Source of the DNA: an uncultured Lachnospiraceae bacterium
Lineage (GTDB): Bacteria; Bacillota_A; Clostridia; Lachnospirales; Lachnospiraceae
NCBI GenBank assembly: GCA_947175285.1
Contig: CAMWMM010000105.1
Coordinates: 1-11,810, forward strand
Direction: 5' to 3'
Length of the DNA: 11,810 nucleotides
The position numbers and the translations under genes are program-made. Positions within the stretch are counted from its first letter, which is position 1, and each line of letters opens with the position of its first letter. Positions 2,010 to 11,760 of the stretch are shown here, piece by piece. The notes under the pieces were generated by a model. The model was given only the letters and a program-made list of their open reading frames with translations. It did not search any database and was not told the origin of the DNA.

Positions 2010-2157
2010 TATTAAGTGGTTCGAGAAGATTTTGAAAAGACAGCCCAAAGTGGCTGTGATGGAGTTCTCGGAGCTGTACCGTAATAAAGGTACAAACAGA
2101 TATTACCGGGCTTATGTGGAAGTGCAGAAAGCCAACATCAAAGAAAAATCTAACTAA
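1975..2157 (+). CDS. DUF3970-like small protein
   Basis: 60 residues from GTG 1975, which has GGAGAGG at 1964-1970 just upstream. The frame is open back to 1870, but nothing there looks like the family. An ATG at 1993 is a weaker alternative. The protein begins MLKIRLMGTKNDIKWFEKIL and continues KVAVMEFSELYRNKG and YYRAYVEV, a compact alpha/beta arrangement ending in a Lys-rich tail. This matches the small 'irLmGTkndikwF' proteins (DUF3970) that precede ParA in conjugative elements of Firmicutes. The role is unknown. It starts inside the end of the DUF6075-like gene and ends 16 bp before parA. Confidence 0.7.
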   Translation: MLKIRLMGTKNDIKWFEKILKRQPKVAVMEFSELYRNKGTNRYYRAYVEVQKANIKEKSN

Positions 2158-2173
2158 ACGGAGGAATAAAACC

Positions 2174-2959
2174 ATGTGTAAAATTATAGCAATCGCAAAC
2201 CAAAAAGGCGGTGTCGGAAAGACTACCACAACGAGCAACTTAGGGATTGGGCTGGCAAAGCAGGGAAAGAAAGTCTTAGTTATTGATGCAGATGCACAGG
2301 GAAGTCTGACTGCAAGTCTTGGCTTCACGGAGCCGGACAAGCTGGAAGTTACCCTTGCAAATGTAATGGAAAAGGTTATCAACGATGAAGAAATTGAGCC
2401 GGGCTATGGTATTTTAAAGCATGACGAAGGGATTGACTTATTGCCAGCGAACATTGAGCTGTCTGGTCTGGAAGTTTCCCTTGTGAATGTGATGAGCAGG
2501 GAGATTATGATGCGCTCCTATATGGATATGGTAAAGGATAAGTACGATTACATTTTGATTGACTGTATGCCCTCGCTTGGCATGATTACCATAAATGCCT
2601 TTGCCTGTGCGGACAGTGTACTCATTCCAGTGCAGGCGGCATATCTGCCCGTTAAAGGGTTGGAGCAGCTTATTAAGACCATAGGCAAGGTAAAGCGGCA
2701 GATTAATCCCAAACTGGAGATTGAGGGAATTTTAATGACAATGGTAGATAACCGTACCAATTATGCAAGGGATATTACAGCACTGCTCATCGAAACTTAT
2801 GGCAGTAAAGTACGGATATTTGAGAACAGCATACCGATGTCCGTGAGAGCGGCGGAAACTTCTGCAGAAGGCATCAGCATTTACCAGCATGATCCGAAAG
2901 GCAGAGTTGCAGGCGCATATCAGTCTTTGACGGAGGAGGTGCTTGGCAATGGGCAATAA
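2174..2959 (+). CDS. parA: ParA/Soj-family partition ATPase
   Basis: 261 residues. The start is ATG 2174 with GGAGG at 2160-2164; the open frame extends back to 2114 but has no comparable ribosome site and overlaps the previous gene. The deviant Walker A motif KGGVGKTT is at residues 11-18 with the signature lysine K11, the Walker A' motif VIDADAQGS is at 36-44, and the Walker B motif YILIDCMPS is at 125-133. Family members bind DNA non-specifically as ATP dimers and are stimulated by ParB bound at parS, moving replicon copies to daughter cells. There is no N-terminal helix-turn-helix extension, so it is the short type that does not autoregulate by direct operator binding. It overlaps parB by 11 bases, so the pair is likely translationally coupled. 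In an ICE it would stabilise the circular replicating form. Confidence 0.95.
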   Translation: MCKIIAIANQKGGVGKTTTTSNLGIGLAKQGKKVLVIDADAQGSLTASLGFTEPDKLEVTLANVMEKVINDEEIEPGYGILKHDEGIDLLPANIELSGLEVSLVNVMSREIMMRSYMDMVKDKYDYILIDCMPSLGMITINAFACADSVLIPVQAAYLPVKGLEQLIKTIGKVKRQINPKLEIEGILMTMVDNRTNYARDITALLIETYGSKVRIFENSIPMSVRAAETSAEGISIYQHDPKGRVAGAYQSLTEEVLGNGQ

Positions 2960-3824
2960 GGCAGGGAGCGCATCAAAGGTCAAATTGAGCAGTTATGATG
3001 ATTTATTTGGCGGTGCGGAGAATGCGGCGGGGGAGCAGATCATCAATGTGAAGCTGACCGATTTACATACATTCAAAGGACACCCGTTCCGTGTCCTTGA
3101 TGATGAAAAGATGGAGGAAACCACAGAGAGCATCAGCAGACACGGTGTGCTTGTACCCGGAATTGCAAGACCGAGGGCAGAAGGCGGCTATGAAATCATA
3201 GCCGGACACCGGAGGAAACGGGGTTCTGAAAGGGCAGGGTTAGACACAATGCCCGTCATTGTCAGGGATTATACGGACGATGAAGCCACGATTATTATGG
3301 TGGATTCCAATATCCAGCGTGAGGACATTTTACCGAGCGAAAAAGCAAAGGCTTATGCCATGAAGTATGAAGCGATGAAGCATCAGGGCAGCAAAGGCGG
3401 CAGTACCCTCGACGAAGTGGGGGAAGCAGCCGGGGAGAGTGGAAAGACGGTGCAGAGGTATGTATGGCTTGCAAGGCTATCCGATGAGCTGCTTGACATG
3501 GTGGATAAGAAAAAGATAGGGATAGCGCAGGGGGTGGATATTTCGTTCCTGTCCGAAGAAGCCCAACAATGGGTATCTGTTATCCTTGAGGAAACGGGGG
3601 CGGCAGTGAACGCTTCCAAATCGGCAAAGCTGAAGGAGTATGGGAAAAGCGGCGAGCTTACGCTTCCAATGGTAAGGCTGATACTGGCGAAGGAAAAGCC
3701 GAAGGAAAGAAAGGTAACGATTAAGGGCGATAAGATCAGCAGATATTTTTCAGAGGACTATTCCAATGATGACATAGAGGGCATCATTATCCAGCTTTTG
3801 GAGGAATGGCAGAATAAGCAGTAA
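2949..3824 (+). CDS. parB: ParB/Spo0J-family partition protein
   Basis: 291 residues from ATG 2949, 8 nt after GGAGGAGGT (2932-2940); the upstream TTG at 2943 is too close to that site. The N-terminal domain (about 30-125) has the CTP-binding/arginine region EIIAGHRRKRG, with GHRR at 86-89, and the following box NIQREDILPSEKAKAY (121-136). A helix-turn-helix follows at about 153-176 (TLDEVGEAAGESGKTVQRYVWLARL). The C-terminal third contains LTLPMVRLILAKEKP and a final acidic helix likely used for dimerisation. ParB proteins load at parS as CTP-dependent clamps and activate ParA. I did not find an obvious parS palindrome close by. The gene overlaps parA and ends 13 bp before repA. Confidence 0.93.
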   Translation: MGNKAGSASKVKLSSYDDLFGGAENAAGEQIINVKLTDLHTFKGHPFRVLDDEKMEETTESISRHGVLVPGIARPRAEGGYEIIAGHRRKRGSERAGLDTMPVIVRDYTDDEATIIMVDSNIQREDILPSEKAKAYAMKYEAMKHQGSKGGSTLDEVGEAAGESGKTVQRYVWLARLSDELLDMVDKKKIGIAQGVDISFLSEEAQQWVSVILEETGAAVNASKSAKLKEYGKSGELTLPMVRLILAKEKPKERKVTIKGDKISRYFSEDYSNDDIEGIIIQLLEEWQNKQ

Positions 3825-3837
3825 AGGAGGCGGTAAA

Positions 3838-4899
3838 ATGGGCGAGCCATTGAAGTTTGATTATTACTATGGCATTGAAGCAGAGCAGTTTTCCTTTTAC
3901 CGTGTTCCACGCCTGCTGATTAAGGACGAGCGTTTCAAGGGGCTTAGCAGCGATGCTAAGCTCCTATATGGGCTGATGCTTGACAGAATGTCGTTGTCAA
4001 TGAAAAATGGGTGGCTGGACGATGAAAACAGGGCATATATCATCTATACTGTTGACAATATAATGGAAGATTTGGGTTGTGCAAGGGCAACCTGTGTAAA
4101 AGTCATCAAGGAGCTTGACAGCGATAATGGTATCGGGCTGATAGAAAAGAAACGCAGAGGGCTTGGAAAGCCTGATATAATTTATGTGAAAAACTTTGCG
4201 GCGGAGGAAAAAAAGCCGGACGAAACAGCCGCAAAAGCTGATAAATCCACAGAAGTTCAAAATCTGAACTTCAAGAAGTTCAATAATTATACTTCTGGAA
4301 GTTCAGAAACTGAACCTCAAGAAGTTCAGAATTTGGACTTGCAGAAGTTCAGAAAACAGACTTCAAGAAATTCAGAAACTGAACTTGCAGAAGTTCAAAA
4401 ATCAGACCCTAATTATACTAACTATAATCAAACAGATCAGAACCATACTGATATGAGTTATACCAATCCTATCAATCAATCTACGGGAAATGCTGATGCG
4501 ATTGATGTGATTGATGAAACGAGTGCATATATGTCACTGATCCGTGACAATCTGGAATATGAACACCACATGAAATATGACCAGTATGGAGATAGGGAAA
4601 TGTACGAGGAAATCTATGAAACCGTCTGTGATGTGGTCTGTGTGAAGCGCAGGACAATCCGTATCAATGGGGAAGATTACCCGTATGAGCTTGTAAAATC
4701 CCGTTTCCTGAAACTGAACAGCAGCCATGTGGCGTATGTCATGGACTGTATGAAAAATACCGACACAAAGATTACAAACATCAGGGCATATCTGATTACA
4801 ACACTTTACAATGCCCCCTCAACCATGAACCATTACTACCAGCAGGAGGTACAGCATGATATGTATGGCGGAGGGTGGGAAGAAAAAGGAATTACTTAA
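3838..4899 (+). CDS. repA: Replication initiator protein A (RepA_N family) with DUF6017-like C-terminal domain
   Basis: 353 residues from ATG 3838, with AAAGGAGG ten bases upstream. The RepA_N domain spans about 5-120: FDYYYG, FSFYRVPRLLI, FKGLSSDAKLLYGLMLDRM, and the winged-helix region ending KPDIIYVKNF. A polar, low-complexity linker (about 121-220) follows; its part 139-191 consists of a 23-residue protein repeat (EVQNL...) written by 23-bp iterons. The C-terminal part (about 230-353, EYEHHMKYD to the end) fits the DUF6017 domain of Gram-positive initiators. RepA_N proteins of plasmids such as pSK41, pAD1 and pCF10 bind repeats lying within their own coding sequence, which act as the origin. 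By analogy this protein probably starts replication of the excised circular element at its own gene. Confidence 0.92.
   Translation: MGEPLKFDYYYGIEAEQFSFYRVPRLLIKDERFKGLSSDAKLLYGLMLDRMSLSMKNGWLDDENRAYIIYTVDNIMEDLGCARATCVKVIKELDSDNGIGLIEKKRRGLGKPDIIYVKNFAAEEKKPDETAAKADKSTEVQNLNFKKFNNYTSGSSETEPQEVQNLDLQKFRKQTSRNSETELAEVQKSDPNYTNYNQTDQNHTDMSYTNPINQSTGNADAIDVIDETSAYMSLIRDNLEYEHHMKYDQYGDREMYEEIYETVCDVVCVKRRTIRINGEDYPYELVKSRFLKLNSSHVAYVMDCMKNTDTKITNIRAYLITTLYNAPSTMNHYYQQEVQHDMYGGGWEEKGIT
4252..4412 (+). repeat. Seven 23-bp iterons inside repA, candidate origin of replication
   Basis: The octamer GAAGTTCA (GAAATTCA in copy 6) begins at 4252, 4275, 4298, 4321, 4344, 4367 and 4390, a strict 23-bp period. 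Most units contain an internal inverted element TTCAGAAACTGAA followed by CTTCAA or CTTGCA, so each unit is itself partly palindromic. Because 23 is not a multiple of three, three units (69 bp) encode one 23-residue protein repeat. The spacing of just over two helical turns, the internal symmetry and the location in a repA_N gene fit an iteron-type origin; initiation at this place is inferred. Confidence 0.85.
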
Positions 4900-4905
4900 T
4901 AAACT

Positions 4906-4924
4906 TCTGGACACAATGTCCAGA
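4906..4924. repeat. Intergenic palindrome copy 1 (TCTGGACA-CAA-TGTCCAGA)
   Basis: Perfect 8-bp arms with a 3-nt spacer, beginning 7 bp after the repA stop and lying between repA and the convergent XRE gene. It matches copies at 6898-6916 and 7087-7105; the flanking 3' GGTGG is also similar to copy 2. No T run follows, so it does not look like a simple terminator. Confidence 0.8.
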
Positions 4925-4929
4925 GGTGG

Positions 4930-6036: not shown

Positions 6037-6082
6037 CCTTGACTAAAGTGTGATTATCTTTTCAATCACACTTTAGTCAAGG
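6037..6082. other. Perfect 19-bp-stem inverted repeat in an intergenic gap
   Basis: CCTTGACTAAAGTGTGATT (6037-6055) pairs perfectly with 6064-6082 around an 8-nt loop (ATCTTTTC). No T run follows, the arms are AT/GC mixed, and a part-copy of the arm lies 31 bp upstream. These points argue against an ordinary terminator and leave open an origin-related structure (nick or single-strand origin), an RNA element, or a binding site. A second small hairpin, CAGAGGT/ACCTCTG (6087-6093 and 6107-6113), follows directly. Confidence 0.75.
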
Positions 6083-6892: not shown

Positions 6893-6897
6893 TAACC

Positions 6898-6916
6898 TCT
6901 GGACATGATGTCCAGA
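6898..6916. repeat. Intergenic palindrome copy 2 (TCTGGACA-TGA-TGTCCAGA)
   Basis: Perfect 8-bp arms separated by TGA, located between the stop at 6892 and the ribosome site of the 48-aa gene at 6935. The 3' neighbour AGTGGAAAGGAGGG is close to that of copy 3, so the conserved unit includes the ribosome-binding purine tract. Confidence 0.85.
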
Positions 6917-6934
6917 AGTGGAAAGGAGGGACAA

Positions 6935-7081: not shown

Positions 7082-7086
7082 TGACT

Positions 7087-7105
7087 TCTGGACATGATGT
7101 CCAGA
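7087..7105. repeat. Intergenic palindrome copy 3 (TCTGGACA-TGA-TGTCCAGA)
   Basis: Identical core to copy 2; here the arms extend to 10 bp (CTTCTGGACA/TGTCCAGAAG, 7085-7107). It begins three bases after the stop of the 48-aa gene and ends just before the GGAAGGAGGG of the next tiny reading frame. Confidence 0.85.
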
Positions 7106-7121
7106 AGTTGGAAGGAGGGAT

Positions 7122-7181: not shown

Positions 7182-7220
7182 TGTATGGTTTTTCCCCGGA
7201 ACGTAACAAGGAGGTGCTTA

Positions 7221-7697
7221 ATGCAGGAGGAAGTAACACAGAAAACGATTGCCCTTGTGATTAAGACCGCAAAATTAGATGCCAACGTGCTGAAATCTGC
7301 AATGAAAATGTATCTGAACCACCGTAAGCAGAAAGCACAGAAAACGCATGGAAAGACTTCTGTAAAAAAGCTCGTTGGCGATGGCGTGGGGGTATCGTCG
7401 ATTGAAGTCACTGACGGCAACATCAAATCTTTTGAGCGTGTAGCCAAAAAGTACAATGTTGATTTTGCCATAAAGAAAGACAAAACGACAGACCCGCCCA
7501 AGTACATGGTCTTTTTTAAGGGCAGGGATACCGATGTGGTGGCGCAGGCATTCAAGGAATTTGTTTATGGTAACGAGAAAAAGAAAGGCAGGGTTTCCGT
7601 AAGGGAAAAATTGAAGCATCTAAAAGATGCATTATCGCAGGACAAGAACCGGGAACGGAGCCGGGAGAAGAAAAAGGACAGGGGGCAGAGCCTATGA
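7221..7697 (+). CDS. PcfB family protein (DUF3801)
   Basis: 158 residues from ATG 7221, five bases after AAGGAGGTG (7208-7215); an in-frame ATG at 7185 lacks such a site. The protein is basic and soluble: N-terminal helix QKTIALVIKTAKLDANVLKSAMKMYLNH, then KTSVKKLVGDGVGVSSIEVTDGNIKSFERVAKKYNVDFAIKKD, then a strand pair PPKYMVFFKGRDTDVVAQAFKEFV, and a highly charged Lys/Arg tail. This is the DUF3801/PcfB pattern of Gram-positive conjugation modules, where the gene stands directly before the VirD4-type coupling protein (pcfB-pcfC in pCF10). It overlaps the traG start in an ATGA arrangement at 7694-7697, so the two are translationally coupled. Confidence 0.85.
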   Translation: MQEEVTQKTIALVIKTAKLDANVLKSAMKMYLNHRKQKAQKTHGKTSVKKLVGDGVGVSSIEVTDGNIKSFERVAKKYNVDFAIKKDKTTDPPKYMVFFKGRDTDVVAQAFKEFVYGNEKKKGRVSVREKLKHLKDALSQDKNRERSREKKKDRGQSL

Positions 7698-8728
7698 GCA
7701 ATATCATAAACGGCATTGCCAAAGACCTGAAAGCCATTCCGAAGAACCTAAAGGCAAAGACCGGGAACATTGACAAAAAGAAACTTGTCCTGATGAACCT
7801 GCCCTATGTCCTTGCAGGGTATTTCTGTGACAAGATAGCGTGCCTGTGGCGGGTATCGCCGGGGCAGGACGCTTCTGCAAAGATGATGGCGGTCATGGAA
7901 GGAATGGAGGGGCTGTTTTCCAATCCCCTGCCGAGCTTCTATCCAAGAGATCTGCTGATAGGGGTGTGCTGCGGCATTGCTTTAAGGCTTGCAGTGTATT
8001 TCAAAGCCAAGAATGCCAAGAAGTTCCGGCACGGCATGGAGTATGGTTCCGCAAGGTGGGGAAATGCAAAAGATATAGAGCCTTACATGGATTCCGTATT
8101 TGAGAATAATATCCTGCTGACGCAGACGGAGCGGCTGATGATGTCAGGCAGACCGAGAGAGCCAAAGTACGCAAGGAATAAAAATATTCTTGTTATCGGC
8201 GGTTCCGGTTCAGGCAAGACGAGGTTTTTTGTAAAACCGAACCTTATGCAGATGCACAGCAGCTATGTTGTCACTGACCCGAAAGGCACCGTCTTAATTG
8301 AGTGTGGAAAGATGCTCAAAAAGGGCGGCTATAAGATAAAAGTCCTCAATACCATAAACTTTGCAAAGTCCATGCACTACAATCCCTTCGCCTATCTGCG
8401 GAGCGAAAAGGACATTCTGAAACTTGTAAACACGATTATTGTCAATACCAAAGGAGAGGGGCAGCAATCCGGCGAAGATTTTTGGGTGAAAGCCGAAAAG
8501 CTGTATTACACAGCGCTCATTGCCTATATCTGGTATGAAGCCCCGGAGGAAGAACAGAATTTCGCAATGCTGATTGATATGATAGATGCGAGCGAAGCAA
8601 GGGAAGATGACGAGAATTTCAAGAACGCTGTTGACCTGCTGTTTGAGGAACTGGAGGGAAAAGACCCTAATCATTTCGCTGTCCGCCAATATAAAAAATA
8701 CAAACTTGCGGCGGGTGTTATAAGCTGA
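7694..8728 (+). pseudogene. VirD4/TraG type IV secretion coupling protein, truncated at residue 344 by insertion
   Basis: The first 344 residues of a coupling protein that normally has about 600. Two membrane segments are visible (about 31-52, LVLMNLPYVLAGYFCDKIACLW, and about 80-103, around LLIGVCCGIALRLAVYF), then GSARWGNAKDI and Walker A GGSGSGKT at 169-176. The conserved TDPKGTVLIECGKML, YNPFAYLRSEKDIL and GEDFWVKAEKLYYTALIAYIW blocks follow. The frame reaches KYKLAAG and then reads only VIS before a stop at 8726-8728; intact relatives continue with a KTAKSIL-like segment and later the Walker B region. The break lies about 80 bp before a serine recombinase gene, so the 3' part was probably displaced by an inserted element. 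The remaining product should lack ATPase function, so transfer of element A is likely blocked unless the insert excises. Confidence 0.9.
8705..8728. other. Probable left junction (attL) of the serine-recombinase element inside traG
   Basis: Coding similarity to TraG ends at GCGGCGGGT (about 8708-8716); after this comes TTATAAGCTGAAAAAGA, with an immediate stop. Large serine recombinases recombine at short sites with a central dinucleotide, leaving such an abrupt junction. The exact crossover cannot be fixed without the right end or an empty site. Confidence 0.55.
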
Positions 8729-8807
8729 AAAAGACTTATTCATCAAACAACAACAAAATAGCTGAACAGTCCGAAAACAGGCACACAGCGGAAAGGAGGA
8801 TTGATTT

Positions 8808-10682
8808 ATGAGTCAGGAAATCACAGCATTGTATGAGCGTTTATCACATGATGATGAATTGCAGGGGGAAAGCAACAGCATATCCAACCAAAAGCAGATG
8901 TTAGAGGAATACGCAAGGCGCAACGGTCTAGGGAATATCCGGCACTTTACGGACGACGGAATATCGGGTACACGCTTCGACCGCCCCGGTTTTGTTGCCA
9001 TGTTGGAACAGATTGAAAAAGGGAATGTAAAGGTTGTCTGCATCAAGGACATGAGCCGTTTAGGGCGTGACTACCTCAAAGTCGGTATGTACATGGAAAC
9101 CATGCGGAAAATGGGCGTAAGGCTTATTGCGGTCAATGACGGTGTGGACAGCTTCAGCGGAGATGATGATTTTACCCCGTTCCGGAACATCATGAATGAA
9201 TGGTATGCAAGGGATACAAGCAAGAAAATCAAGTCCACTTTCCAAGCCAAAGGGCAGGCAGGAAAGCACGTTGCAAGCTCCCCGCCCTACGGCTATCTGA
9301 AATCGCCGGAGGACAAAGAAAAATGGATCATAGACGGGGAAGCCGCCGAAATCGTCCGCAGGATATTCCACATGACAATGGAGGGATATGGACCGTATCA
9401 GATAGCGAAAAAACTGTCAGAGGATAAAATACCAATCCCCGCATACCACCAAGCGCAGTTAGGCGTGGGATTGTACCAAAACAGGGAATTTAAGGACATT
9501 TACCATTGGGGAAGCTCTACGGTGTGCCATATCCTAGCCAAGCAGGAATATTTAGGGCATACGGTAAATTTCAAGACAAGGAAGCATTTCAAGGACAAGA
9601 AAAGCCACTATGTATCTCAAGACCAGTGGTTGATATTCGAGGACACTCACGAGCCGATCATAGACCAAGAAACTTTTGACAACGTACAGCGGATAAGGGG
9701 ACAGGTAAGGCGATACCCCGACGGTTGGGGCGAAGCGCACCCATTAACAGGACTGATGTATTGTGCGGACTGCGGGGGCAAGATGTATGTCCACAGGGTA
9801 AACAACGGGAAGCGCATACCACAGTACACTTGTGCAAATTACAGCAAAACACCGATTGGCACACGCTGTAAGTCAGCGCACCGCATCAAGGCGGATAATG
9901 TCATGGAGATTGTTTCAGAAATGATACGGGAAGTGATACGCCATGCAAGCGTTGACAGGGAAGCCTTTGCAAAAGAGATACAGGCAGAGCTTGAACAGAA
10001 ACAGACCGTTGATTTTACCGCACAGAAAAAGCGTATTGCAGTGTGTGAAAAGCGTATCGGGGAACTGGAAATACTGATAGCGAAAATCTATGAGGACAAT
10101 GTATTGGGGAAGCTGTCAGACAAGCGGTATGAAACACTGTCCAACCAGTACGAAAAGGAACAGGAACAGCTAACACAGGAAGTTATGGAATACAAGACCA
10201 TGCAGGAAAATTATGAGAATGACAGGAAATCGGCGGCACGTTTCCTTGCGCTTGTGAAGCGGTACGAAAACTTTGAACAGCTAACAACCGTCATGCTGAA
10301 TGAGTTTGTTGAGAAAATCGTTGTCCATGAGCGTGAGAAGAAAGGCAGAGCCGACAGCCCGCAGAAAATAGAGATACATTTTAACATGATCGGGCAGTTT
10401 ATACCGCCCGATATGGAACAGCCGGAACTAACGCCGGAACAGTTGGAAGAACAAAGGAAACGGGAAGCCCGAAAGGAAAAGCTGCACCAAAACTACCTAA
10501 AGCGCAAGGCAAACGGAAAGCAGAAAGCCTATGAGGAACGCATAAAAGCGGAGAAAAAAGCACAGATTGACACCCAAAAGGAAGCCATAAGAGCCGAGGA
10601 CAGGGAAAAGGGAATTTATTATATCGTGTCAGACAAGGGAGTGCCAAAGATACCAAGAGCAAAGGACACAGCCATTGTTTGA
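8808..10682 (+). CDS. Large serine recombinase (resolvase, recombinase, zinc ribbon, DUF4368-like)
   Basis: 624 residues from ATG 8808 with AAAGGAGG at 8792-8799. The N-terminal resolvase domain (1 to about 150) has ALYERLSHDDE with R11 and catalytic S13, DDGISGTRFDRPGF, and CIKDMSRLGRDYLKVG. The recombinase domain follows (about 160-300, PPYGYLKSP... through YHWGSSTVCHILAKQEYLGH). A zinc ribbon has C319, C322, C342 and C354 (CADCGG...YTCANY...RCKS). Next come a coiled coil (about 395-465) and a C-terminal part, FLALVKRYENFEQLTTVMLNEFVEKIVVHE, of DUF4368 type, then a Lys/Glu-rich tail. Enzymes of this kind integrate and excise mobile elements by serine-linked strand exchange. All key residues are intact, so it is probably active. 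It sits at the left edge of the inserted element, about 80 bp from the traG junction. Confidence 0.95.
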   Translation: MSQEITALYERLSHDDELQGESNSISNQKQMLEEYARRNGLGNIRHFTDDGISGTRFDRPGFVAMLEQIEKGNVKVVCIKDMSRLGRDYLKVGMYMETMRKMGVRLIAVNDGVDSFSGDDDFTPFRNIMNEWYARDTSKKIKSTFQAKGQAGKHVASSPPYGYLKSPEDKEKWIIDGEAAEIVRRIFHMTMEGYGPYQIAKKLSEDKIPIPAYHQAQLGVGLYQNREFKDIYHWGSSTVCHILAKQEYLGHTVNFKTRKHFKDKKSHYVSQDQWLIFEDTHEPIIDQETFDNVQRIRGQVRRYPDGWGEAHPLTGLMYCADCGGKMYVHRVNNGKRIPQYTCANYSKTPIGTRCKSAHRIKADNVMEIVSEMIREVIRHASVDREAFAKEIQAELEQKQTVDFTAQKKRIAVCEKRIGELEILIAKIYEDNVLGKLSDKRYETLSNQYEKEQEQLTQEVMEYKTMQENYENDRKSAARFLALVKRYENFEQLTTVMLNEFVEKIVVHEREKKGRADSPQKIEIHFNMIGQFIPPDMEQPELTPEQLEEQRKREARKEKLHQNYLKRKANGKQKAYEERIKAEKKAQIDTQKEAIRAEDREKGIYYIVSDKGVPKIPRAKDTAIV

Positions 10683-10756: not shown

Positions 10757-11032
10757 ATGAAACTGATGAAATGCGAGCAGGAAGTACATATCAGCTTTTG
10801 CGCTGATGAAGAAACCGCCACCCTCTACACTTCCTATCCGGCGTGGATAAGGAAAATGGATAAACTTGTTGAGAAGAACCCGCAGAGCTTCCAGTGCATA
10901 GCGGAAACCGAAGCAGGCAAGACCTACGCCATGCCGAGGAACTTTATCAGCATACGTTCCAAAGAGCGCACCGTTACCTTGACCGAGGAACAGAAAGAAC
11001 AGGCAACAAGACGTTTACAAGGTAAGGAATAA
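10757..11032 (+). CDS. Unrecognised 91-aa mobile-element protein
   Basis: ATG 10757 follows AAAGGAGGACAC; the frame extends back to 10679, but that would run through the terminator. The protein begins MKLMKCEQEVHISFCADEETATLYTSYPAWIRKMDKLVEKNPQSFQC, continues with AGKTYAMPRNFISIRSKERTVTLTEEQKEQATRRL and ends with a short charged tail. The beta-rich layout, with a conserved-looking 'E..t..lY...p.wirkmdkl...nP' block and a 'tY.mPrnfisir' block, is shared by small uncharacterised proteins found on many Firmicute phages and ICEs. No enzymatic or DNA-binding motif is apparent. It stands between the recombinase and the second repA. Confidence 0.75.
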   Translation: MKLMKCEQEVHISFCADEETATLYTSYPAWIRKMDKLVEKNPQSFQCIAETEAGKTYAMPRNFISIRSKERTVTLTEEQKEQATRRLQGKE

Positions 11033-11180: not shown

Positions 11181-11546
11181 ATGCCGTTTGATTACTTTTA
11201 CGGGAAACAGGGCGGGCAATACGCTTTTTACCGCATACCGAAGCTGTTGTTTACGGACAGCCGCTTTAAAGCACTCTCCACAGACGCAAAACTGCTCTAC
11301 GGTATGCTGATAGACCGCATGGAACTGTCACTGAAAAACGGTTGGATTGACGGACAGGGGCGCATATACCTCTACTTCACGATTGACGAGATACAGAAGC
11401 GTTTCCATTGTGCAAGCGGCAAAGCGGTCAGACTGCTTGCGGAGCTTGACAGTGCAAAAGGCATAGGGCTTATCGAGAGCGTAAGGCAGGGAATGGGGAA
11501 ACCGAATATCATTTATGTCAAGAACTTTGTCAGCGATACCGACTAG
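11181..11546 (+). CDS. Second RepA_N initiator, N-terminal domain only (121 aa)
   Basis: ATG 11181 follows AAAGGAGAAAAAGG. The 121 residues align along the whole RepA_N domain of the protein encoded at 3838: FDYFYG, AFYRIPKLLFTDSRFKALSTDAKLLYGMLIDRMELSLKNGW, KGIGLIES...GMGKPNIIYVKNF, roughly half identical by eye. The frame then stops (SDTD, TAG 11544-11546) exactly where the other protein enters its linker, so the linker and DUF6017-like part are missing. In-frame stops and a non-coding iteron array follow. It may be a truncated initiator, a compact initiator, or a regulator competing at origin sites; the C-terminal part could also lie beyond the window as a separate gene. Confidence 0.85.
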   Translation: MPFDYFYGKQGGQYAFYRIPKLLFTDSRFKALSTDAKLLYGMLIDRMELSLKNGWIDGQGRIYLYFTIDEIQKRFHCASGKAVRLLAELDSAKGIGLIESVRQGMGKPNIIYVKNFVSDTD

Positions 11547-11629: not shown

Positions 11630-11721
11630 ATTGCGAAAATCGAAACTCTTGAATTGCGAAAATCGAAACTCTTGAATTGCGAAAACCGAAATTCATGAAT
11701 TGCGGAAATCGAAATTCAAGA
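11630..11721 (+). repeat. Four 23-bp tandem iterons downstream of the second repA
   Basis: Units start at 11630, 11653, 11676 and 11699, each beginning ATTGCG and containing a CGAAA(C/T)TC block before TTGA, ATGA or AAGA. Units 1 and 2 are identical; units 3 and 4 carry several substitutions. The period is the same 23 bp as the array inside the first repA, but the sequence is different. The array lies in DNA with stops in all plus frames and no convincing gene, so here it is not constrained by coding. It is probably the binding array/origin for the second RepA_N protein. Confidence 0.85.
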
Positions 11722-11760
11722 AGTTCGGATAATCGGTATATATCCAGTCTGATATATATT

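Follow-up and report, generated by a model that had tools for sequence, protein, structure and literature searches.

A probable integrative and mobilizable element nested in traG of a Lachnospiraceae conjugative element, with a tentative model for its regulation

Results

The window is the whole stretch of DNA that was analysed, 11,810 bases from a Lachnospiraceae contig; the genes, attachment-site parts, expression signals and direct repeats described below are all on its + strand. It aligned with contig JAIEEY010000484.1 (L001; a Lachnospiraceae MAG, 12,368 bp) at 99.7% identity, with 10 mismatches and one gap (11,810 versus 11,833 bases). Profile searches identified genes of a host element to the left of position 8714. 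These were a ParA-type ATPase (2114..2959; Pfam AAA_31, 8.8e-59), a ParB-type protein (2943..3824; Pfam ParB_N, 2.1e-19, with TIGR00180 above cut-off), a RepA_N/DUF6017 protein (3838..4899; Pfam), a DUF3801 (PcfB-like) gene (7185..7697; Pfam DUF3801, 3.3e-40) immediately 5' of traG, and traG. The annotation of L083, a relative with an intact traG, has an identical gene order, with a PcfB family protein followed by a DNA-transfer protein. Judged by this gene set, the host is probably a Tn1549/Tn5252-like conjugative element. The host element has three copies of a 26-nt palindrome around CTGGACATNATGTCCAG (4902-4927, 6894-6919 and 7084-7109; one copy is a variant), two of them directly 5' of GGAGG. 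As a guess, the palindrome may act as an operator, or else be bound in the manner of parS by the ParB-type protein (2943-3824). A perfect 19-nt inverted repeat with an 8-nt loop is located between host-element ORFs at 6037-6082.

The traG ORF (7694..8728) encodes 344 amino acids and represents the 5' part of a gene for a VirD4-like coupling protein of the CD1115 family. We used the intact traG of L083 as a yardstick (593 amino acids, with KYKLAAG from residue 323, reading KYKLAAGKTAK). The window's traG breaks after codon G341, at KYKLAAG, which is where an earlier note on this DNA had seen the VirD4/TraG similarity stop; the match to the NCBIfam profile NF045973 (VirD4-like, CD1115 family) likewise ends at residue 341, having covered profile positions 1-207 of 442. 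The score of 248 falls slightly below the model cut-off of 250, as is possible for half a gene. The retained piece has the Walker A motif GGSGSGKT (identified by eye) and lacks the TraG-D_C region, which corresponds to residues 413-531 of the intact L083 protein. Its C-terminus reads G-V-I-S, the V-I-S and the stop codon being supplied by the inserted DNA.

The junction was placed with the help of relatives. L005 contains a complete element in traG, with the left junction ...GCGGCGGG-TGTTATAAGC and the right junction ...TTACTGG-CAAGACAGCG. When both were compared with the traG codons for KLAAGKTA, their overlap was GG, and the same 2-bp core was common to both ends in the relatives with both ends located. 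In the window the GG core is at 8714..8715, as given by the L005 overlap with intact traG and by the left end shared with L002 and L003. The adjoining 30 bases (8716..8745) are identical in L002 and L003 behind different flanks and thus represent the element's left attachment arm. On these comparisons, the window junction is the left attachment site. The 3' half of the window's own traG was absent from the window and from L001, which ends at 12,368 bp still within the nested element, and it had no match in G001, the assembly to which L001 belongs, where the search returned just an unrelated VirD4 (44%) and one weak match.

The nested element begins with a gene for a large serine recombinase of 624 amino acids (8808..10682), co-directional with traG and containing the four domains of the DUF4368 type (Pfam Resolvase, Recombinase, Zn_ribbon_recom and DUF4368). 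The gene starts 79 bp past the traG stop codon and 92 bp past the core, consistent with the distance of about 80 bp in the earlier note, and a probable ribosome-binding site was read from the sequence at 8790..8799. It is followed by a small ORF from the ORF list without a Pfam match (10757..11032) and a short RepA_N-type ORF (11181..11546; Pfam RepA_N, 2.9e-30). Iteron-like 23-bp direct repeats lie 3' of the RepA_N ORF (11630..11714); TRF analysis of L001 gave 11630-11737 with a period of 23 and 4.7 copies, and the end in the window was deduced from an array one unit shorter. With such an array the excised circle can perhaps replicate. No relaxase was found in the visible part of the window's element, as the contig ends before any.

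Relaxases were found in related elements. In the complete element of L005 (about 6.7 kb, in traG), a relaxase matching MobA_MobL (1e-100) is accompanied by a TTRAP protein; MobA_MobL was also found in L126 (in traG) and L004 (not in traG), and Mob_Pre in L006 (not in traG). The complete L005, L004 and L006 elements measure about 5.5 to 6.7 kb, and their ORF lists (limits 90-110 amino acids) had no ORF of more than 300 amino acids besides the recombinase and the relaxase. Since L005 encodes a relaxase of the MobA/MobL type and none of its remaining ORFs has the length of a mating-pore ATPase, it would be classified as an integrative and mobilizable element (IME).

A scan of genome contigs confirmed 439 relatives, and the following counts rest on the best 80 of the 439. 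The earlier note had suggested looking for DUF4368-type recombinases behind a traG cut at the same codon, and we found this arrangement in most loci: in 58 of the 80 (59 when L070, recognized by eye, is counted), part of traG is found no more than 700 bp upstream of the recombinase. Fifty-six of the 58 traG alignments end at residue 343 or 344, and the other two agree with them (L022, in which a second piece ends at 343, and L069, by eye). The traG-inserted loci include some from several Bacillota families and from Fusobacterium. The remaining 22 loci comprise L070, four without a located end (L013, L020, L025 and L060), one whose contig starts at the element end (L023), and 16 whose left end was located outside traG, including L021, where a 12-mer resembles traG.

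The 3' half of traG follows the recombinase in 12 of the 80 loci and also in L126, which is outside the 80, giving 13 elements with both halves. In nine of the 12 loci the traG similarity picks up again at L083 residue 325; in L005, L019 and L022 it does so at residues 311, 316 and 326, respectively. Because the same codon is cut in 58 of the 80 loci and the 3' half lies downstream in 12, the adjacency of traG and recombinase is not due to chance.

With a threshold of 1e-60, traG was matched in 140 of 397 Lachnospiraceae genomes; among the matches listed many were full-length, with recurring partial ones in addition. Two of the matches listed (G179 and G388) end at the same place as the window's traG, and both have the 3' half 9 to 12 kb further on; the same end without an insert, which the earlier note had set against its own reading, did not appear among them. 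A DNA scan of the 397 genomes with the left end plus the recombinase start matched 74, mostly by the recombinase start alone. A viral collection gave seven loci. In a plasmid collection the recombinase identity was at most 62.4% among the 15 matches listed, and the plasmid DNA search gave a single traG match. One further locus, L125 (G263:C9, near 103121), has the family left end and no recombinase match in the 6 kb examined; it is perhaps a remnant.

Separate upstream traG pieces in the 58 traG loci revealed additional breaks. These lie near codon 198 in seven loci (L031, L038, L040, L050, L058, L062 and L072), near codon 120 in four (L033, L045, L075 and L077) and near codon 267 in two (L054 and L009), with L059 ambiguous. 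The codon-198 insert of L031 has the same layout as the window: about 80 bp past the break it opens with another DUF4368 recombinase, which shares 44% identity with that of the window. The 2.7-kb inserts at codon 267 had no match to the window's recombinase. The gene traG appears to be a landing pad with several separate insertion codons.

We then compared insertion sites within the recombinase family. The closest relatives of the window's recombinase, L002 and L003 (98.7 and 98.4% identical), are not in traG; their left ends match the window's and their flanks differ. L002 is inserted in a gene with DUF285 and BspA-type LRR matches, the repeats of which continue past the right end. L003 is near the start of an FtsX-type permease gene beside an ABC ATPase gene, and its target reads GG-GAAAACAGCA, much like traG. 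Both ends were located in five non-traG copies, and the target flanks meet at GG in each. For L004, L006 and G001:C380 (a decayed second copy in G001) both ends are on one contig; for L002 and L003 a pattern search placed the right end elsewhere in the assembly of each. A reversed-pattern control of this search gave 0 to 2 hits per strand and genome, and only hits with fitting flanks or position were used. In L003 and L124, which are different family members, TCTGCACCA stands directly before the GG core, and neither flank matches traG.

A traG-specific clade of recombinases was considered and rejected, since recombinases labelled traG and non-traG are intermixed on the tree. On the tree of 81 recombinases (L020, L025 and L060, with unlocated ends, scored as other, and L070 scored as traG by eye), the labels required 20 changes versus a shuffled mean of 18.4, and 474 of 500 shuffles were as low. 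The recombinase of L048, outside traG, is identical to those of L049, L052, L053 and L054, inside traG. The secondary left half-sites resemble traG weakly (19 sites, among which L042 and L074 share one and are not independent and L021 has the traG-like 12-mer; mean rank 0.295 among 12,725 GG sites; KS p 0.003). Given the scattered labels and the identical recombinases under different labels, traG is in this set the preferred and not the obligatory site, and secondary sites appear at the tips of the tree. The earlier note's idea of a conserved virD4 stretch as the target accordingly holds in that many relatives use the same codon, but not as a strict rule, as L002, L003 and L048 illustrate.

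Promoter-like motifs were examined at both ends of the elements. Fifteen right ends were identified through the traG 3' half, regardless of promoter motifs (12 of the 80 loci, L126, L141 and L142; of the last two, the right ends alone were examined). TTGACA stands 10 nt before the GG core in 14 of the 15, and L141 has TTGACT. The five non-traG right ends were left out of this count, their search pattern itself containing TTGACA; in G001:C380, TTGACA is 10 nt before the last GG. The left ends were examined in 75 leaders of 81, six having been dropped with a left end unlocated by the pattern (L013, L017, L020, L025, L027 and L060, of which L017 and L027 are traG loci). TAGAAT with a would-be spacer of 17 nt was present in 50 of the 75, and TATAAG with a spacer of 15 nt in nine. 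The window is of the TATAAG type: its -10-like box (8719..8724) is predicted to face a right-end TTGACA in the circle, taking the TTGACA from the relatives L002 and L003, with a 15-nt spacer that is below the usual 16-18. The -10 boxes of L004 and L006 are poor (4 and 3 of 6). The conserved TTGACA may instead serve recombinase binding.

The leaders between core and recombinase often contain a terminator-like hairpin. A hairpin-plus-T-run rule was passed by 62 of the 75, and 59 reached -16 kcal/mol or better (including L073, with an irregular fold), the hairpin starting at the element's end; since about 50 of the 75 have nearly one left end, these counts represent few independent leader sequence types. 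Three representative leaders folded better than all of 200 shuffles (z -3.9, -5.2 and -3.9). The window leader (z -2.3; 3 of 200 shuffles as good) and that of L005 (z -1.5; 16 of 200) have no terminator, and no terminator hairpin was found in the leaders of L001 to L006 and L126. A consensus scan of window positions 8600-8830 detected neither a promoter nor a terminator. For RNAs begun at the predicted attP start, the T-run hairpin was weaker, and not always lost, among the values listed (at most four per type). From the presence and absence of the hairpin, read-through from traG is predicted to be blocked in much of the family and open in the window clade.

Discussion

The window very probably represents the left part of an IME nested in traG. 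The element has its own integrase at one end and defined attachment sites (the left end here, both ends in relatives), as expected for an IME, and it is a serine-recombinase insertion inside traG, like the published traG IMEs. In the mechanism that we propose from these alignments, the IME would have been inserted by its own recombinase at the GG core, which belongs to the Gly codon in the conserved KLAAG/KTA stretch of traG, with the recombinase presumably joining the element's attP to the traG attB through a 2-bp overlap; other GG sites would serve as secondary sites. The insertion would separate the Walker A region of the coupling protein from its C-terminal part, and with the protein split, the host element, while occupied, should not transfer with its own coupling protein. 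Such a loss of coupling function, with transfer blocked until excision, would be a hyperparasite-like strategy. Excision would restore traG, and the excised circle could borrow the host transfer machinery while using its own relaxase, of the kind seen in relatives. IMEs inside transfer genes raise the question of how an element can move on after disabling the one that carries it.

The right-end TTGACA at a fixed distance, the left -10-like boxes and the terminator-like leaders suggest a state-dependent switch, which we put forward tentatively as having somewhat less than an even chance of being correct. Circularization would place the right-end -35 (TTGACA) against the left-end -10 and turn on the recombinase for integration; circle-started transcripts would largely lack the first arm of the terminator. 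In the inserted state the boxes would be apart, and a terminator whose first arm is the element's left end would stop read-through from the host transfer operon. In the window clade, which has no terminator, the host transfer operon would switch on excision and so restore traG. If true, this model makes two opposed predictions, with elements insulated in much of the family versus open in the window clade.

An alternative that is compatible with the IME reading, and that we consider rather unlikely, is that read-through of the host transfer operon is what expresses the recombinase of the inserted element in the window clade; switching on conjugation would then itself set off excision and make traG whole again. 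In favour of this, the recombinase gene runs in the same direction as traG, with 79 bp between it and the traG stop codon, the scan of 8600-8830 gave no promoter-like or terminator-like site, and excision on induction has been hypothesized, without a mechanism in the available part of that paper (PMC5357655). However, the strong terminator-like hairpin between junction and recombinase in 59 of the 75 leaders of relatives would insulate much of the family, although the window clade and a few other members do not have it, and, in the available text of another study, two ICE-hosted S. suis IMEs had no detectable excision under the conditions tested, one of them having a broken integrase gene (PMC7168690).

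It could also be argued that the element is a strictly traG-specific, specialised parasite of conjugative elements and that the non-traG insertions are assembly errors. The use of traG in 58 of the 80 loci, across several Bacillota families and Fusobacterium, fits such an element. Nevertheless, strict specificity is quite improbable and was rejected on the non-traG insertions: in 16 of the 80 loci the left end was located outside traG, the five non-traG copies with both ends have target sequence meeting at GG, the labels are scattered on the tree (20 changes versus 18.4), and the secondary half-sites resemble traG just weakly. That the cut traG is a decayed gene end, with the recombinase adjacent by chance or rearrangement, would agree with the missing 3' half of the window copy but is more improbable still, given the recurrence of the same codon in 58 of 80 loci and both halves in 13 elements.

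Nesting and traG as a target have already been published, together with a traG that has two sites and the proposal that induction leads to excision, as seen in the available parts of three papers (PMC5357655, PMC5704250 and PMC7168690). The earlier note had regarded virD4 as a target that deserved attention; traG is already a published target, of Tn6104 and of streptococcal IMEs. It had also named Tn6103 as a nested clostridial precedent. The nesting is indeed known, but Tn6103 is the host and Tn6104 the nested element. According to the available part of its description, Tn6104, in Tn6103 of Clostridioides difficile R20291, is a large serine recombinase element within ORF 1743 that carries a mobA/mobL gene; it excises, its circle was detected, and a 2-bp direct repeat was reported, also for the circular form and the empty target (PMC3158075). 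ORF 1743 holds two of the three Tn6103 inserts; transfer of Tn6103 was not detected, and the authors gave the inserts as a possible cause (PMC3158075). A 2017 review, in the part available, lists the ORF 1743 site as an internal site of traG/VirD4 (PMC5704250). Compared by description and not by codon, Tn6104 resembles the window element as a serine recombinase element nested in the traG of a conjugative transposon, and it differs in its size of 15.6 kb and other cargo.

The streptococcal elements IME_Sco1050_traG_site1 and site2 and other streptococcal traG IMEs (Ser_1) have a serine integrase and interrupt the traG gene of ICEs of the Tn5252 superfamily. Both Sco1050 elements are listed with a replisome organizer, and 12 of the 16 serine-integrase IMEs of the streptococcal study have a MobQ relaxase, in the available parts of these sources (PMC5357655 and PMC5704250). 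The likeness to the window element is at the level of the gene, and the host here is instead a Lachnospiraceae MAG.

Tn4451 and its recombinase TnpX are like the present family in having a 2-bp core at both ends (GG in the window's relatives) and unlike it in the GA dinucleotide and low specificity, versus a GG core and one preferred traG codon here. We know of no traG preference of Tn4451 or Tn4453. Tn4451 reportedly, as the title of a paper has it, has a promoter formed in the circle. For Tn4451/Tn4453 (TnpX), numerous GA sites and low specificity are given in the available part of the review (PMC5704250).

In the open-licence literature that we searched, no description of a switch for traG-nesting IMEs was found. 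A close parallel to the predicted switch is ICEKp1, for which the available text describes an integrase whose promoters differ between the inserted and the excised state and a terminator-like leader by which transcription coming from the host promoter is attenuated (PMC13023037). State-dependent promoters with a terminator-like leader would be common to both. ICEKp1, in contrast, is an ICE at a tRNA gene, and the promoter of its excised state is located upstream of attP, near the 3' end, versus boxes from opposite ends here. Set beside these systems, the present case is confirmed and largely an ordinary one of a published kind, with a corrected claim of specificity and a testable regulatory prediction.
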